NCBI GenBank assembly: GCA_017983515.1
Contig: JAGOBF010000002.1
Location: forward strand, 62,001-126,000
Length of the DNA: 64,000 nucleotides
Direction of reading: 5' to 3'
From: Promineifilum sp.
Lineage (GTDB): Bacteria; Chloroflexota; Anaerolineae; Promineifilales; Promineifilaceae
Of the stretch, positions 1,725 to 13,671 are shown piece by piece. How positions within the stretch are numbered: the first letter of the stretch is position 1; every line of letters begins with the position of its first letter. Both the position numbers and the translations under genes were made by a program. The notes below the pieces were generated by a model. That model was not told the origin of the DNA. It worked only from the letters and a program-made list of their open reading frames with translations, and did not search any database.

Positions 1725-1811
1725 ATGCTCTTAACCTGTGCGTCCACTGGCTGGCTCGGCCGCCCGACCCACCACCATCACCCTATGGTTGTTGAACGTT
1801 GCCCGGGTTGA
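1725..1811 (+). CDS. hisL: his operon leader peptide (28 aa, four consecutive His codons)
   Basis: A short ORF starts at ATG 1725 and stops with TGA at 1809-1811. Codons 16-19 (1770-1781) are CAC CAC CAT CAC, four histidines in a row, a composition typical of his-operon attenuation leader peptides. It lies between the promoter and an intrinsic terminator that precedes hisG. The stop codon sits in the segment 1807-1813, which can pair with 1855-1861, the loop-side part of the 5' arm of the terminator. A ribosome reaching the stop codon would cover that segment and leave the terminator free; one stalled at the His codons would leave the alternative helix free to form. No ribosome binding site is visible upstream; leaderless initiation is likely. 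Too short for usual gene callers. Confidence 0.75.
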   Translation: MLLTCASTGWLGRPTHHHHPMVVERCPG

Positions 1812-1849
1812 GGCCACCGGTGAACCGGTGGCATACGCGAGAAATCAGC

Positions 1850-1880
1850 ACCCTCCTCAGCTCCTGGGGAGGGTTTTTTT
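1850..1880 (+). terminator. his attenuator: intrinsic terminator in the hisG leader
   Basis: Arms 1850-1859 and 1865-1874 form a 10-bp stem with one G-T wobble and a 5-nt loop, followed by seven T (1874-1880). It ends 15 nt before the hisG ATG, so it can only work as a conditional terminator. Just upstream, 1813-1832 is a perfect 8-bp hairpin (loop TGAA). The flanking segment 1807-1813 can pair with 1855-1861 (7 bp, one wobble) and would open the terminator. Together with the His-rich leader ORF this is a textbook ribosome-mediated attenuator. Confidence 0.8.
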
Positions 1881-1895
1881 ATTTGATGAGGGATT

Positions 1896-2954
1896 ATGAC
1901 ACGAACCGACATTCGTCTGGCATTACCCAGCAAGGGTATCCTGCAGGACGGAGCCATCGCGTTTCTGGAGGCCTGCGGGCTGAGAGTTTACCGGCCAAAT
2001 CCGCGACAGTATGCGGCGACGATTCCCAGCCTGCCGGGCGTCGTCGTGTTGTTCCAGCGGCCAGGCGACATCGTTACCAGTGTGCAAGCGGGAAGCATTG
2101 ATTTCGGCATCACCGGCTATGACGTGCTGGCCGAGAAAGGGGCGGCGACTGGGGGGCCGGTGCTGGTCATACACGACGATCTTGGCTTCGGGGCTTGCAC
2201 ACTAAATCTGGCCGTGCCCGAGACGGCCCAGGCGCACTCCATTGCCGACCTGCGCCAATGGGCTCAAGAATCAGCTACTGCCGGACAGATCATTCGCATA
2301 GCCACCAAGTTCCCGCACGTGACGGCTACCTTCCTTGATCAGAATGAGATCGGCCCTTTCCAGTTAATCACTGTTGACGGAACACTGGAGATCGCCCCGG
2401 CTATCGGTTATGCTGATCTCATCTGCGACCTTGTATCGTCGGGTATCACCTTGCGTGATAATCACTTGCGGATATTAGATGGGGGGGAGGTCTTGCGTTC
2501 GCAGGCGGTGCTCATCGCCAATCGTCTGGCCCTGCGAGCGCGGCCCGAAGTTCTGGCCATCGCCCGGCATTTTTTGGAGTATATTGAGGCTTACTCGCGG
2601 GCCAGGGGATCGTTTCTGATCACGGCTAATATGCGCGGAGACTCGGCCGAGGCCATCGCCCAGCGTATGTTCGCCCAAACCAGCCTGGGCGGCTTGCAAG
2701 GCCCGACAGTCGCCCCAGTCGTCGCGCGGGAACACCTGCGGTCGGAGGCGACATGGTTCGCCATCAACATCATTGTCCGCCAGGAAAAACTGTTTGAGGC
2801 CGTTGACGAGCTGCGGGCCATTGGGGGCAGTGGTGTCGTCGTCGTGCCCTGCGCCTATATTTTCGAGGAGGAGCCGGTTCGTTTTCGCGCCATGCTAGAC
2901 GCCTTGGCGAAGCCGGATGGCGCTTCCGTTCTCAACCAAACGAGTTCATCATGA
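1896..2954 (+). CDS. hisG: ATP phosphoribosyltransferase, long form
   Basis: First enzyme of histidine biosynthesis: it joins ATP and PRPP to give N1-(5-phosphoribosyl)-ATP and is the feedback-controlled step in the cytosol. The N-terminal catalytic part begins LALPSKGIL and includes GSIDFGITGYD. The PRPP-loop region reads TVDGTLEIAPAIGYADLICDLVSSG. The C-terminal part (about 275-330, FEAVDELRAIGGSGVVVVP) is the ACT-like regulatory domain of the long HisG form, so no HisZ partner is needed. At 352 residues it is longer than the usual 290-300, mainly through a C-terminal tail. The ATG at 1896 follows GAGGG and the attenuator. Its stop overlaps hisD by 4 bp. Confidence 0.93.
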   Translation: MTRTDIRLALPSKGILQDGAIAFLEACGLRVYRPNPRQYAATIPSLPGVVVLFQRPGDIVTSVQAGSIDFGITGYDVLAEKGAATGGPVLVIHDDLGFGACTLNLAVPETAQAHSIADLRQWAQESATAGQIIRIATKFPHVTATFLDQNEIGPFQLITVDGTLEIAPAIGYADLICDLVSSGITLRDNHLRILDGGEVLRSQAVLIANRLALRARPEVLAIARHFLEYIEAYSRARGSFLITANMRGDSAEAIAQRMFAQTSLGGLQGPTVAPVVAREHLRSEATWFAINIIVRQEKLFEAVDELRAIGGSGVVVVPCAYIFEEEPVRFRAMLDALAKPDGASVLNQTSSS

Positions 2955-4276
2955 TCACGATCTATTCTGTGGAAGAGGCTCGACGGACCATATTACGCCG
3001 GGATGGGCCACTGGAACCCAGCGTGCCGGCCGCGCTTCGCGACGGCATCACGCGAATATTTGGCGAGGCGCTGACGCCGGCGGCGGCCGTGGAGCGTGTT
3101 CTGCACGATGTGGCGACGCGCGGCGACGCCGCGTTGCAGGAGTGGACGGAGCGCATTGACGGCGTGCGGCTTGATACGTTTGCGGTGGATCCGGCCGACA
3201 TTCGGGCTGCTGCGGCGGCACTCGATGCTGACCTGCGCGATGCCTTGTGTCTGGCGGCCGAGCGAATCCGTGCCTACCACGCTCTGCAACCCATCGCTTC
3301 ATGGACGTCCGACACATTGGGCGGCCGTTTGGGCCAGCGAGTGACGCCGTTGCGGCGAGTGGGCGTCTACGTCCCCGGTGGCACGGCGTCGCTGCCGTCC
3401 TCGCTGCTGATGTCGGTCATCCCGGCGCAGGTGGCGGGCGTGGACGCGATCGTTGTCGTCACGCCGCCGGGGAGCGATGGCCGCGTGCCGCCGATCATAC
3501 TGGCCGCGGCGGCGACGGCGGGCATCGAGACGATCTACACGCTGGGCGGGGCGCAGGCCATCGCCGCACTTGCCTTTGGCACGGAGAGCATCCCTCGGGT
3601 AGACAAGATCGTCGGCCCCGGCAATTTGTTCGTCACGTTGGCGAAACGACAGGTTTTCGGGAGGGTCGGCATCGATGGTCTGAACGGCCCGACGGAGACG
3701 GTTGTCATTGCCGACGCGTCGGCCAATCCGGCCTGGGTCGCGGCCGATCTGCTGGCCCAGGCCGAGCACGACACACTAGCAACGGCTATTCTGCTGACGC
3801 CTTCGCGCCTTCTGGCCGAGGCCGTGCAGACCGAAGTTGCCCGACAGCTGGAGCTCCTGAGCCGGGACCGGGTGATCGCCGTGGCGTTGGCCGGACAAGG
3901 GGGGATAGTCGTCACAAATGATCTGGCCGAGGCGGCCGAGATGGCCGACGCTTTTGCCCCGGAGCATCTCTGTATTGCCACCCGGAACCCCCAGGCGCTG
4001 GCGGATTCGCTGCGCAATGCCGGCGGGTTATTCTTTGGCGAGCGCTCATTCGAGGTGCTGGGCGATTACGTGGCCGGCCCCAGCCACACGATGCCAACCG
4101 GCGGCACGGCCCGCTTTGCTTCGCCGCTCAACGTATTGGACTTTGTGCGCATCACCAGTATCATCGATCTGGATGAGCGGACAGTCAACCAACTGGCCCC
4201 CGTGGCGGCCCGGCTGGCGCGCGCCGAGGGGCTGACCGCCCATGCCGCGGCGGCTGAGATGCGAGTGAGTCGATGA
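2951..4276 (+). CDS. hisD: histidinol dehydrogenase
   Basis: Catalyses the last two steps, histidinol to histidinal to histidine, using two NAD+ and zinc. Family signatures are clear: the GGTASLPSSLLM glycine/serine segment, GGAQAIAALAFGT, DKIVGPGN, and the zinc/catalytic region QAEHD. The C-terminal GPSHTMPTGGTARF segment is also typical. Its 441 residues match the usual 430-440. Start ATG overlaps the hisG stop (ATGA), and its own stop overlaps hisC in the same way, so translation is coupled along the operon. Confidence 0.96.
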   Translation: MITIYSVEEARRTILRRDGPLEPSVPAALRDGITRIFGEALTPAAAVERVLHDVATRGDAALQEWTERIDGVRLDTFAVDPADIRAAAAALDADLRDALCLAAERIRAYHALQPIASWTSDTLGGRLGQRVTPLRRVGVYVPGGTASLPSSLLMSVIPAQVAGVDAIVVVTPPGSDGRVPPIILAAAATAGIETIYTLGGAQAIAALAFGTESIPRVDKIVGPGNLFVTLAKRQVFGRVGIDGLNGPTETVVIADASANPAWVAADLLAQAEHDTLATAILLTPSRLLAEAVQTEVARQLELLSRDRVIAVALAGQGGIVVTNDLAEAAEMADAFAPEHLCIATRNPQALADSLRNAGGLFFGERSFEVLGDYVAGPSHTMPTGGTARFASPLNVLDFVRITSIIDLDERTVNQLAPVAARLARAEGLTAHAAAAEMRVSR

Positions 4277-5397
4277 TCGCCGAGCGTCTTTTGCGTCCCG
4301 ACATCCGCGAGATGGAACCTTATGCGCCCATCGTGCCGTTCGACGTCCTATCGGCGCGGCTTGGTCGCCCGGCAGCCGACATCGTCAAACTGGACGCCAA
4401 CGAAAACCCCTATGGCCCGCCGCCCGGCGTGGCCGCGGCGTTGGCCGCCGAAGCTTACTACCATATCTATCCTGATCCGGAAGCCGGCGTCCTGCGCGAA
4501 AGAATCGAACGGTACGTGGGCGTCCCCAAAGAGTCACTGGTAGCGGGCATGGGTGCGGATGAGCTGATCGATCTCGTCTTGCGGGCCATCCTCATGCCGG
4601 GCGATGCCGTGATCGATTGCCCGCCCTCCTTTGGCATGTATCCCTTTTCCACGGCGGTGAACGGCGGCTCATATGTCTCTGTCCCACGTCTGGCCGACTT
4701 CAGCCTCGACCTTGAGGCTATCGAAAAGGCCGTGGCCCAAACACCGCGCGCCAAAGTGCTGTTCGTTTGTTCGCCTAATAACCCGGACGGCAGCATCGTC
4801 GGTGATCGCACGCTGGGTCGCCTGTTGGCCCTGCCGGTTCTGGTCGTGCTGGATGAGGCCTACATCGACTTTGCCGAGCCGCAGGGGTATGCAAGCCGGG
4901 TATCATGGGTCGGCCGATACGACAATCTGGTCGTGTTGCGTACGTTCAGCAAGCTGGCCGGCCTGGCCGGCCTAAGAGTAGGCTATGGCGTTTTTCCCGA
5001 CTGGTTGCTGCCTCATCTCTGGAAGATCAAGCAGCCGTACAACATCAATGTCGCTGCCTCGCGGGCGGCCGTCGCTGCGTTGGAGGATGTCGATTGGCTA
5101 AAAGAAAAGCTGGGCCTGCTGGTGGCCGAGCGCGAGCGAATTGCGCGGGAGCTGGCGAACTTCGATTTTTTGCGGCCGTATCCCAGTCACTCGAATTTCA
5201 CCCTGTTCCGCGTCTTGGGTCGTTCGGCGGCCGGCCTCCAGCGGGAGCTGGCGGCGGAAGGCGTTCTGGTGCGCCATTTCGACAAGCCGGGCCTCGCCAA
5301 CTGTATTCGAGTCAGCGCCGGGCGGCCGCAGGATACGGAGCGTCTGGTGGCGGCGTTGCAGAAAATAGCCGCGACACAGGAAGATAGTAACTTGTGA
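4273..5397 (+). CDS. hisC: histidinol-phosphate aminotransferase
   Basis: A PLP-dependent class I/II aminotransferase that converts imidazole-acetol phosphate plus glutamate to histidinol phosphate. Visible landmarks are [15 protein letters not shown] near the N-terminus, CSPNNPDGS, the PLP-contacting DEAYIDFAE, and the Schiff-base lysine in [16 protein letters not shown]. The 374-residue length is normal. It overlaps hisD upstream and hisB downstream by 4 bp each (the hisB start is a GTG inside GTGA). Confidence 0.95.
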
Positions 5398-5990
5398 ATC
5401 AACGACGCGCGACGATCAAACGACGAACGAACGAGACCGACATCACTATCACCATTGATCTCGACGGCCGTGGCACCTGTGAGGTAGCGACGGGTATCGG
5501 TTTTCTCGACCATATGCTCGCCGCGTTTGCCGTTCACGGGCTTTTCGACCTGAACGTGAGTGCCGTGGGCGATCTGCACATTGACGTGCATCATACCATC
5601 GAAGACGTCGCCATCGTCCTGGGTCAGGCGGTCCACGAGGCCTTGGGTGGGCGCGTGGGCATCCAGCGTGTCGGGCACGCCTACGTCCCGATGGATGAGG
5701 CGCTCGGTTTCGTGGCCATTGATTTGAGCGGCCGTCCTTACACTGTCTTTCGCGCCGAGTGGCGCACGCCGGCCGTCGGTCAATTTCCTACCGATCTGGT
5801 GGAGCACTGGTTCGAATCGTTTGCTGTTCATGCGCGGCTGACGCTCCACGCGCGATGCGAGAACAATCGCAACGATCATCATGGGGCCGAAGCGTTGTTC
5901 AAGGCGCTGGCGCGGGCCTTGCGCATGGCCGTGGATGTCGATCCGCGCCGCGTCGGTGTCCCGTCAACGAAGGGGACTCTGTCACGATGA
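5394..5990 (+). CDS. hisB: imidazoleglycerol-phosphate dehydratase (monofunctional)
   Basis: Dehydrates imidazole-glycerol phosphate to imidazole-acetol phosphate. The metal-binding repeats typical of IGPD are present: GFLDHML with DVHHTIEDV, and [11 protein letters not shown] with [19 protein letters not shown]. At 198 residues it is the monofunctional bacterial type, without a fused histidinol-phosphatase. No hisN-type phosphatase gene lies in the window, so that step must be encoded elsewhere. It starts with GTG at 5394, overlapping the hisC stop. Confidence 0.95.
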
Positions 5991-6643
5991 CGGGCCTGAC
6001 CGGCGAAAAACGGGTGACGATGGTGGACTATGGCGGCAGCAATCTGCGCTCGGTGCAAAAAGCATTTGAAGCCGTTGGCGTCACGCCTGAAGTGACGTCC
6101 AACCCGGATATAGTTCGTCGCGCGGCGCGGCTGGTGCTGCCTGGCGTCGGCGCCTTCAGACCGGGGATAGACGCCCTGCGGTCGCGCGGGCTGGACGAGG
6201 CCATTGTTGAGGCCGTGGCGAAAGGCACTCTGTTACTGGGTATTTGCCTGGGCATGCAGCTGTTGTTTGCAGAAAGCGAGGAGATGGGACGGCATAAGGG
6301 CCTTGGTCTTCTAGCGGGACAAGTGGTGGCGTTCGTGGGCCGCCCGTCCACGGCCGAGAATCCAGGCCTGAAGGTGCCGCACATGGGCTGGAACCGGATT
6401 CGCCATGAAGGAGAGCATCCTCTGTTGGCGGGCGTTGGCAATGGGTCATATGTCTACTTTGTCCACTCCTATTACTGTGCGCCGTCTAACCCGGAGGATA
6501 TGCTGGCGACCACCGATTACGGCGTGGAATTTGCCGCGATCGTCGGCCGCGACCGCCTCTACGGCATCCAGTTCCATCCGGAAAAAAGCCACCGGATCGG
6601 GTTGGCTATCCTGCGCAACTTTGCCGAGATGGCGACGGGATAA
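5987..6643 (+). CDS. hisH: imidazole glycerol phosphate synthase, glutaminase subunit
   Basis: A class I glutamine amidotransferase that supplies ammonia to HisF. The nucleophile elbow [10 protein letters not shown] carries the catalytic Cys, and GIQFHPEKS carries the His and Glu of the triad. The start ATG at 5987 overlaps the hisB TGA by 4 bp, as elsewhere in this operon. Upstream in-frame Met codons would lie inside hisB and are rejected. That gives 218 residues, slightly longer than the usual ~200 through a short N-terminal lead before [10 protein letters not shown]. Confidence 0.94.
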
Positions 6644-6644
6644 T

Positions 6645-7382
6645 ATGGACTTCACAATTTACCCGGCAATCGATCTGCGTCAGGGCCGCGTCGTACGGTT
6701 GCAATTGGGCGATCCCGACCGGCAGACGATCTTTGGCGACGATCCGGTGGCCGTGGCCGGCCGCTGGCTCGATGCCGGGGCGCGCTGGATTCACGTCGTC
6801 AATCTCGATGGGGCGTTTGCCGAGGAGGCAAGCGCCAATTGGGCGGCCCTGGAGCGGCTGGGCAAGTTACCGGTGCGGCTGCAATTTGGAGGCGGCATCC
6901 GGGCAACGGCCGAGGTCGACCGGGCGCTGGCCTGCGGCGTCAGTCGCGTCGTGCTGGGCACGGCCGCCCTCGAACGACCGGCGCTGGTGGCCGAGTCCAT
7001 CGAACGTTTCGGCGGCGAGTGCGTGGCCGTGGGTATCGACGCCCGCGAGGGCCGCGTGCGCACGCGGGGCTGGAAACACGAGACGGCGGTTACGCCGTCA
7101 GATTTGGCCGGAGAGATGGGCCATCTGGGTGTGCGCACGATTATCTATACCGATATCAGTCGCGATGGCGTCTTGAGTGGTGTCAACGTCGCCACGACGG
7201 TCGCTCTGGCCGAGGCTTCGGGGCTGGAGGTCATCGCTTCCGGGGGCGTCAACTCCCTGGCTGACGTTGGCGCGATTGTAAAAGAGGCAGCTTCGGGGAT
7301 AGGCGGCGTCATCATTGGCCGCGCGCTCTACGAAGGACAGGTCAAGCTGGCGGCAGCGCTGGAACTGGCGGCGAGAGGGTAA
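6645..7382 (+). CDS. hisA: ProFAR isomerase
   Basis: 1-(5-phosphoribosyl)-5-[(5-phosphoribosylamino)methylideneamino]imidazole-4-carboxamide isomerase, a TIM-barrel Amadori enzyme. The N-terminal [15 protein letters not shown] carries the first catalytic Asp and YTDISRDG the second. Phosphate-binding GGG/GG motifs appear at QFGGGIR and IASGGVNS. The ATG at 6645 follows the hisH stop by one base and gives 245 residues, the usual size; the earlier in-frame Met codons lie inside hisH. Sister fold of HisF, which follows. Confidence 0.94.
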
Positions 7383-7387
7383 ACAAT

Positions 7388-8158
7388 ATGCTTGCCAAAC
7401 GGATCATACCTTGCCTGGACGTGAAAGACGGCCGCGTCGTCAAAGGGATCAACTTTGTGGAACTGCGCGACGCCGGCGATCCGGTGGAGCAGGCGAGATT
7501 CTACGATGCCGAAGGCGCCGACGAACTGGTGTTTCTGGATATCACCGCCACTCACGAGGCGCGCGAGACGGTACAGGCTATGTCTCGGGCGGTGGCTGAC
7601 AGCGTGTTCATCCCCTTCACGGTCGGCGGCGGCATCGGCAGCGTCGAGGATATGCGCGCTATCCTCCGGGCAGGGGCCGATAAGGTGAGTATCAATTCGG
7701 CCGCCGTGCGCCGGCCCGACCTGATCGCCGCCGGTGCGGCCCAATTCGGCCGGCAGGCAATCGTCGTCGCCATTGATGCGCGCCGCCGCGCCGATGGACA
7801 AAACGCCTGGGAAGTATTTATCAACGGCGGACGTGTGGCTACGGGAATGGATGCGGTCACCTGGGCGCAGCGGGTCGAGGCCTTGGGCGCGGGCGAAATC
7901 CTGCTGACCAGTATGGATGGCGACGGAACGAAACAGGGCTACGATGTAGCCTTGACGCGAGCGGTGGCCGATGCCGTCGCTATTCCGATCATCGCTTCCG
8001 GAGGAGCGGGCACACCGGAACATTTTGCCGAAGTATTGACCGAGGGCCGGGCCGACGCGGCATTGGCGGCTTCGCTTTTCCACTACCGGCAGTTATCCGT
8101 GGCCGATCTTAAATCCTATTTGATGGAACGAGGGATCACGGTGCGCCATGACGATTGA
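7388..8158 (+). CDS. hisF: imidazole glycerol phosphate synthase, cyclase subunit
   Basis: A TIM-barrel enzyme that uses ammonia from HisH to form imidazole-glycerol phosphate and [21 protein letters not shown] holds the first catalytic Asp and VVAIDARR the second. [12 protein letters not shown] and [13 protein letters not shown] are the usual C-terminal phosphate-binding parts. Its 256 residues are standard. It is preceded by a 5-bp gap after hisA and overlaps hisI by 11 bp. Confidence 0.96.
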
Positions 8159-8489
8159 ACTTCGCTACGATGAGCGGGGGCTGATCCCGGCCGTGGTGCA
8201 GGACGCAACTACTTTGGAGGTCTTGATGGTGGCCTACATGAACGCCGAAGCGTTGCGGCTGACGCTGGCAACGAGCGAAGCCCACTTCTGGAGCCGTAGC
8301 CGTCGAACTCTATGGCACAAAGGAGCCACCTCCGGCAACGTACAACGCATTCGACAAATCCGGTATGATTGTGATGCCGACACATTATTACTGCTGGTCG
8401 AGCCGGCCGGCCCGGCTTGCCACACGGGCGAAACGTCCTGTTTCCACCGAACATTGCTTACGACCTCGCCAAAGGAAGACGATAGATGA
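8148..8489 (+). CDS. hisI: phosphoribosyl-AMP cyclohydrolase
   Basis: Opens the adenine ring of PR-AMP (third step). The zinc and magnesium residues lie in the segment from [11 protein letters not shown] to [12 protein letters not shown], with [16 protein letters not shown] as the substrate-binding signature. At 113 residues it is a stand-alone cyclohydrolase. The PR-ATP pyrophosphatase is a separate, overlapping gene (hisE) rather than a HisIE fusion. Confidence 0.95.
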
Positions 8490-8776
8490 CCGACGCTATC
8501 TACGAATTGGAATCCACCCTCTTGCGCCGCAAGCAATTATCTGTGCCAGAATCGTATACGGCTCGCCTGCTCGCCGCCGGTGAGGATGAGATCATCAAGA
8601 AGATCGGTGAGGAGGCCGTCGAGGTTATTTTGGCGGCCAAGGGACAGGGGGATCAACGGGTGATCGAAGAATCGGCCGACCTCATATTTCACTTGCTCGT
8701 CCTGCTCATTTCTCGCGATCTATCATGGTCGGATGTGGAAAAGGAACTGGAAAGGCGCAAAGTGCCGCGTGAATAG
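8486..8776 (+). CDS. hisE: phosphoribosyl-ATP pyrophosphatase
   Basis: Hydrolyses PR-ATP to PR-AMP (second step). It is a small all-alpha NTP pyrophosphatase of the MazG-like fold with the metal-binding helix [17 protein letters not shown] and the second Glu/Asp helix [16 protein letters not shown]. At 96 residues it is a typical stand-alone HisE. The ATG overlaps the hisI stop by 4 bp. It is the last gene of the his operon; no terminator hairpin separates it from the next gene 43 bp on. Confidence 0.94.
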
Positions 8777-11735: not shown

Positions 11736-11807
11736 TGGGCCCGCAAGGATTCGAACCTTGAACCAATCGGTTATGAGCCGACCGCTCTGCCGTTGAGCTA
11801 CAGGCCC
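11736..11807 (-). tRNA. tRNA with CAU anticodon (elongator Met or Ile2)
   Basis: A 72-nt cloverleaf with a 7-bp acceptor stem (GGGCCTG / CGGGCCC, one U-G), discriminator A, short D-loop, anticodon loop CTCATAA and a T-arm with GGTTCGAATCC. CCA is not encoded. Base pairs C4-G69 and C5-G68 are the pairs that in E. coli mark tRNA-Ile2 as a TilS substrate and are absent from elongator tRNA-Met. An Ile2 identity is therefore possible, which would fit the neighbouring tilS. It is last in a Pro-Gly-CAU cluster. Confidence 0.9.
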
Positions 11808-11820
11808 TCCGGGAAACGAG

Positions 11821-11891
11821 AGCGGCAGACGGGATTCGAACCCGTGAAAACAGCTTGGAAGGCTGTTGTGTTACCACTACACCACTGCCGC
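11821..11891 (-). tRNA. tRNA-Gly(TCC)
   Basis: A 71-nt cloverleaf with acceptor stem GCGGCAG / CTGCCGC, anticodon loop CTTCCAA (TCC) and T-loop GGTTCGAATCC. The discriminator is T and CCA is not encoded. It lies 13 bp upstream of the CAU tRNA and 7 bp downstream of tRNA-Pro, so all three are probably one transcript. Confidence 0.93.
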
Positions 11892-11898
11892 GTATCAG

Positions 11899-11972
11899 TC
11901 GGGGCGGCCGGACTTGAACCGGCGGCCTCTCGGTCCCAAACCGAGCGCTCTGCCAAGCTGAGCTACGCCCCG
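11899..11972 (-). tRNA. tRNA-Pro(TGG)
   Basis: A 74-nt cloverleaf with acceptor stem CGGGGCG / CGCCCCG, discriminator A, anticodon loop TTTGGGA (TGG) and T-loop GGTTCAAGTCC. It is the first gene of the three-tRNA cluster, starting about 20 bp after a good promoter -10 box. Confidence 0.93.

Positions 11973-13588: not shown

Positions 13589-13671
<83 letters not shown>

Follow-up and report, generated by a model that had tools for sequence, protein, structure and literature searches.

A very probable histidine operon attenuator with a predicted leaderless leader peptide in Promineifilum, and its counterparts across the Anaerolineae

The his leader of Escherichia coli carries seven His codons, has more stems than the element described below and is translated from a start led by a Shine–Dalgarno (SD) site. 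As far as it is outlined in PMC9413887, the E. coli/Salmonella his attenuator (RF00514, His_leader) joins a His-codon leader peptide to mutually exclusive antiterminator and terminator structures ahead of the his operon, with the position of the ribosome serving as the switch. The same source, in its treatment of histidine, presents candidates for His attenuation in the Bacillus cereus group, Peptostreptococcaceae/Lutispora and Erysipelotrichales, whose leader peptides bear runs of three to five His codons; likewise, the corresponding part of PMC2965389 proposes His attenuators for hisS/hisZ of bacilli. These Firmicutes candidates are computationally found His leader peptides, accompanied in the case of the his operons by a terminator and an antiterminator. 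A further point of reference is trpL of the alphaproteobacterium Sinorhizobium meliloti, a ribosome-dependent attenuator responding to tryptophan, the RNA of which begins at the leader ATG, i.e., is leaderless, with a reported 5' end and a known role in trans (PMC7298713). For the Chloroflexota, we found no report of his attenuation in the open-access papers searched, though a comparative study from 2010 (Lopatovskaya et al., cited in PMC4833913) may hold an earlier mention.

Here, we describe a locus from Promineifilum sp. which shares with the enterobacterial and Firmicutes elements the His leader peptide and the alternative structures before the his operon, and with trpL a leader ORF that appears to begin at the RNA 5' end. 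In contrast to RF00514, whose covariance model finds no match here, this element and its relatives usually have 3–5 His codons, a simpler set of pairings (regions 1:2, 2:3 and 3:4) and a predicted leaderless start; unlike the Firmicutes candidates, it belongs to another phylum and is spread across a class, and a leaderless start goes unmentioned for those candidates in the relevant portions of PMC9413887 and PMC2965389; and, as against the trpL case, its 5' end is a predicted one. The window, i.e., the entire 64,000-nucleotide stretch of DNA that was analysed, invites a specific reading: going by its sequence and that of its relatives, we consider it highly probable that positions 1689-1880 constitute an attenuator through which ribosomes control transcription of the his operon, with a leader ORF predicted to be leaderless. 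As a mechanism this is classical and has been described before; the novelty lies in its distribution across a class and in the predicted leaderless start. A first-pass annotation of this DNA had recognised a histidine attenuator, described such attenuation as known from enterobacteria and suggested a wider spread or an independent origin. The published Firmicutes candidates already take His attenuation beyond the enterobacteria.

The operon controlled by the putative attenuator is complete, with nine genes in the order hisGDCBHAFIE, each supported by an NCBIfam equivalog match. The first structural gene, hisG (1896-2954, plus strand), is of the long form with a C-terminal domain (TIGR00070 and TIGR03455), and hisD, hisC, hisB, hisH, hisA, hisF, hisI and hisE follow on the same strand at 2951-8776. 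Upstream, a consensus scan predicts a sigma70-type promoter on the plus strand at 1689-1717 (TTGACG, 17 nt, TAGACT, with the TG of an extended -10 element). It ends at 1717, placing the leader ATG at 1725, 7 nt past the -10 box, and the RNA is expected to start at about 1724-1725. The leader peptide ORF (1725-1811, plus strand) spans 28 codons from this ATG to a TGA at 1809-1811, has no SD site and translates as MLLTCASTGWLGRPTHHHHPMVVERCPG. Its likely sensor is a run of four consecutive His codons, CAC CAC CAT CAC, at 1770-1781, exactly where the first-pass annotation had placed it, and this run is kept with synonymous changes in relatives. Within the window CAYCAYCAYCAY is unique to 1770-1781, against 0.21 occurrences expected in shuffled sequences; the rarity of the four-His run is insufficient by itself, and it is its position upstream of hisG that counts. 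Elsewhere in the window, three tRNA genes cluster on the minus strand at 11736-11972 and a fourth tRNA gene lies on the same strand at 13589-13671.

Between the leader ORF and hisG lies a strong intrinsic terminator (1850-1880, plus strand; regions 3:4), with a stem of 11 pairs including one U-G (1850-1860/1864-1874), a loop at 1861-1863 and a T7 run at 1874-1880; the hisG ATG (1896) is only 15 nt beyond it. We also considered whether it could be the end of an upstream gene; this was ruled out, since the neighbour at 1156-1539 is divergently encoded on the minus strand, leaving no plus-strand gene for the terminator to end. A competing helix can be formed by region 2 (1804-1813), which overlaps the leader stop codon, and region 3 (1855-1863), which comprises the 5' arm and loop of the terminator. 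The 7-nucleotide complementarity proposed in the first-pass annotation (1807-1813/1855-1861) proved to be real and longer than claimed: GGGUUGAGG at 1805-1813 pairs with CCUCAGCUC at 1855-1863 over 9 bp as an antiterminator, with a stacking sum of -16.6 kcal/mol that is matched by 0.5% of dinucleotide shuffles. This figure comes from a contiguous helix energy test, which replaced a duplex prediction with free bulges that was too permissive. That annotation overlooked the promoter, the predicted leaderless start and a further pairing of 10 bp, in which region 1 (1729-1738) is the partner of 1804-1813 when no ribosome is on the leader (UCUUAACCUG/CGGGUUGAGG). In the window alone this 1:2 pairing is not above shuffles (p 0.26); in several relatives it is perfect over 9-13 bp. 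The perfect hairpin noted earlier at 1813-1832 was also recovered, with 8 pairs and -15.5 kcal/mol, between regions 2 and 3. Hairpins of differing sequence occupy the same place in several relatives (by eye: G006, G021, G028 and G029) and are absent in others; the hairpin is probably a spacer within the 2:3 loop, and probably acts to shorten the antiterminator loop. The single-sequence fold yields a weak z-score of -1.7, and is superseded by the comparative tests.

Briefly, we propose the following course of events. RNA polymerase would start at or beside the leader ATG, and a ribosome would load directly on the 5' end of the RNA by leaderless initiation. When charged tRNA-His is scarce, the ribosome would stall at the His codons (1770-1781) and leave region 2 (1805-1813) bare; this might then pair with region 3 (1855-1863) once the latter is made, preventing the terminator and allowing transcription of hisGDCBHAFIE. 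When histidine is plentiful, the ribosome would reach the stop codon at 1809-1811, inside region 2, and by covering that region allow the terminator at 1850-1880 to form. In the absence of any ribosome, region 1 (1729-1738) would pair with region 2, with the terminator again forming.

Folding with the nucleotides under the ribosome removed (assuming a footprint reaching 12 nt downstream of the first base of the A-site codon) is consistent with the geometry proposed in the first-pass annotation. With the A site at the fourth His codon, the central 2:3 pairs have probabilities of 0.96-0.97 as soon as region 3 has been transcribed; for a ribosome standing at the stop codon the 3:4 terminator is near 1; and without a ribosome 1:2 is about 0.97 and 3:4 near 1. 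Under the same assumed footprints, a stall at the first instead of the fourth His codon gives a 2:3 probability of just 0.2, because nearby nucleotides compete, such that the geometry is clear for one stall and weak for the other. In the full-length equilibrium the terminator is more stable than the antiterminator by about 5 kcal/mol, and read-through therefore needs the antiterminator to form first, which is the usual assumption for such attenuators. Counting against the mechanism is that in the window region 1, located about 31 nt before the first His codon, would be re-exposed behind the stalled ribosome.

Comparative evidence for the pairings comes from 66 leaders in 15 family groups, in which the energy of each region with its own partner was compared with between-family partner swaps in 5000 permutations. 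For 2:3, the own-partner mean is -14.3 kcal/mol versus -11.4 for permuted partners, with 0.12% of permutations as good; for 1:2, the corresponding means are -12.7 and -10.5 kcal/mol, with 0.38% as good. Compensating 2:3 changes are numerous between families, clear cases being UGACCGGGAGG/CCUCCCGGUCA (G293), AUGGUCGGG/CCCGACCAU (G245) and GAUCGGGAG/CUCCCGAUC (G401), while GCUUUAACCCAAA/UUUGGGUUAAAGC (L033) is a clear case for 1:2. Within the window's own family, ten loci, the window included, keep the 2:3 pairing in register (8 or 9 of 9 positions), and G022 offers a clean compensation, in which UGA becomes UAA in the leader stop codon and C becomes U in the terminator arm; several other genera of this family have a contiguous helix that is shifted in position or weak. 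Outside this family, region 2 is usually found after the His codons and before the stop. Taken together with the folding, the hallmarks of a classical attenuator seen at this locus are a short ORF with tandem His codons upstream of the cognate his operon, an intrinsic terminator between this ORF and hisG that recurs in relatives, and an antiterminator that is exclusive with the terminator and shows compensating changes, if weakly in some genera of the family. The first-pass annotation had held that its reading would fall if relatives kept hisG and lost the His codons or the compensating changes; relatives with hisG as the first gene in fact keep the His codons, the terminator and the alternative pairing.

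The distribution of the element was surveyed in hisG upstream regions gathered from the window's family, the class Anaerolineae and the phylum. The full set, comprising a His-rich short ORF, a nearby -10 box and a T-run, is present in 32 of the 34 scorable hisG upstream regions of the family and, by the same scan, in none of 63 control upstream regions (trpE, leuA and ilvB, from genomes of the same family and class). Within the class, at least 16 family-level groups carry the element and others lack it (f21, f45, f30 and more). Across the leaders, the two His codons interchange (CAT 210 vs CAC 107) and the remaining peptide is divergent. When 52 genomes of the family were scanned throughout for the pattern, nine known hisG leaders and only two other places came up, the latter apparently chance matches. 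In the other classes of the phylum, a His-codon run in a short ORF was found at 2 of 39 hisG upstream regions (G468 and G461), a figure to be taken as a lower bound given that hisG is not always the first gene there; a third match was a long arginine-rich frame and was not counted. The two short ORFs, L161 (G468, family f88) and L162 (G461, family f65), belong to two families outside the class and may be independent cases; in L161 the start codon is a GTG close to a -10-like box, and there is a strong inverted repeat resembling a terminator. As for hisG itself, one genome of the same genus, G005 (97% complete), has no match to the long HisG or to the HisG domain PF01634, and is a possible histidine auxotroph within the genus; G003 and G004 likewise have no match to the long-HisG profile, the one applied to them.

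The way in which translation of the leader begins deserves separate consideration. Promoters searched for blind to the start codon score far above shuffles in these leaders, and their spacing in relatives agrees with that in the window: in 64 of 67 leaders an ATG or GTG, the first in frame, follows the -10 box by 6-11 nt, a placement seen in 6% of shuffled sequences. An SD-like site was found in none of the 67, compared with 21 of 26 hisG starts in the same loci. The promoter spacing and the missing SD strongly suggest a leaderless, or almost leaderless, leader ORF. The spacing is bimodal: it is 7 nt or 9-10 nt and hardly ever 8, as could be expected if the RNA began either directly with the ATG or some three bases ahead of it. 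It is conceivable that the attenuation is real and yet starts from an SD-led codon or from an upstream in-frame TTG (1662, 1689 or 1719), as the frame is open upstream to 1662, and the bimodal spacing, observed for starts that are themselves predicted, would allow many leaders a 5' end of 2-4 nt. We think this unlikely, since the TTGs at 1662 and 1689 fall upstream of or within the predicted promoter and both the SD count and the blind promoter placement speak against it. In 4 of 12 Chloroflexi genomes, the predicted share of leaderless genes is 4-6% (PMC3160421); measured against those genomes, predicted leaderless starts are therefore strongly concentrated among his leaders. We would tentatively go further and entertain the idea, which we hold to be somewhat less probable than its converse, that the his attenuator is ancestral to much of the Anaerolineae and leaderless throughout, with direct loading at the 5' end being a working part of the switch. 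Were this so, the ribosome would join before the terminator region is made with no need for an SD, and the operon would also be sensitive to conditions that alter leaderless initiation.

Two other accounts would dispense with the His codons as the sensor of an attenuator. One is that the product is the peptide itself, a His-rich leaderless peptide (e.g., metal-binding or trans-acting) with its own terminator, with hisG being transcribed from a second promoter past that terminator. It draws on the precedent of peTrpL of Sinorhizobium, a leaderless leader peptide that can act in trans (PMC7298713), and on several relatives in which the terminator stands 60-200 nt before hisG, leaving space for a promoter. 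However, the 15 nt available in the window are insufficient for one; the peptide outside the His run is unconserved while the RNA complementarities covary; and the His ORF is found upstream of hisG, not elsewhere. We accordingly regard this account as very improbable. The other account, that a T-box or some other riboswitch-type attenuator senses tRNA with the His codons being incidental, seems to us hardly credible. The presence, ahead of an amino acid operon, of a terminator that competes with another pairing is indeed T-box-like, but searching the leader against Rfam gave no family match at the gathering threshold, T-box and RF00514 included, and relaxing the search to E-values up to 10 added only chance-level PyrR and L31 matches, with neither T-box nor RF00514 among them. 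Moreover, tens of genera retain the in-frame His run and the promoter-proximal ATG despite divergence of the RNA around them, and a T-box needs neither. The ribosome-mediated attenuator thus remains our preferred reading.

If this is correct, classical translation-coupled attenuation is placed in a large and mostly uncultured phylum, implying coupled transcription and translation there, and its retention and loss across one class would make it possible to test how His attenuators originated. The fixed start, predicted to be leaderless, suggests that SD-led initiation is dispensable for attenuation, and the more than 60 natural variants would lend themselves to studying the timing of ribosome loading against that of RNA polymerase.

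Among the upstream regions searched at other amino acid operons, the same device was found at none of those before trpE. Before leuA there is one leucine-type leader (L228), and a second attenuator-like device occurs upstream of ilvB (L261, L259, L260, L253, L256, L258, L249, L254, L257, L255, L247, L244, L246 and L251). In this ilvB/leuA device, a leader peptide rich in Leu, Ile and Val (e.g., MNFVISLVLISLIIIVLLEQEAVPVG) precedes a terminator that takes the form CCGCCCAACAGGGCGG-T7, and the leaders are not leaderless in all cases. In most family members, the terminator arm can pair with the leader end (CTGTTGGGTGA or TTGGGTGA), the complementarity extending over 8 exact bases by script in L254 and L257 and as judged by eye in the others.
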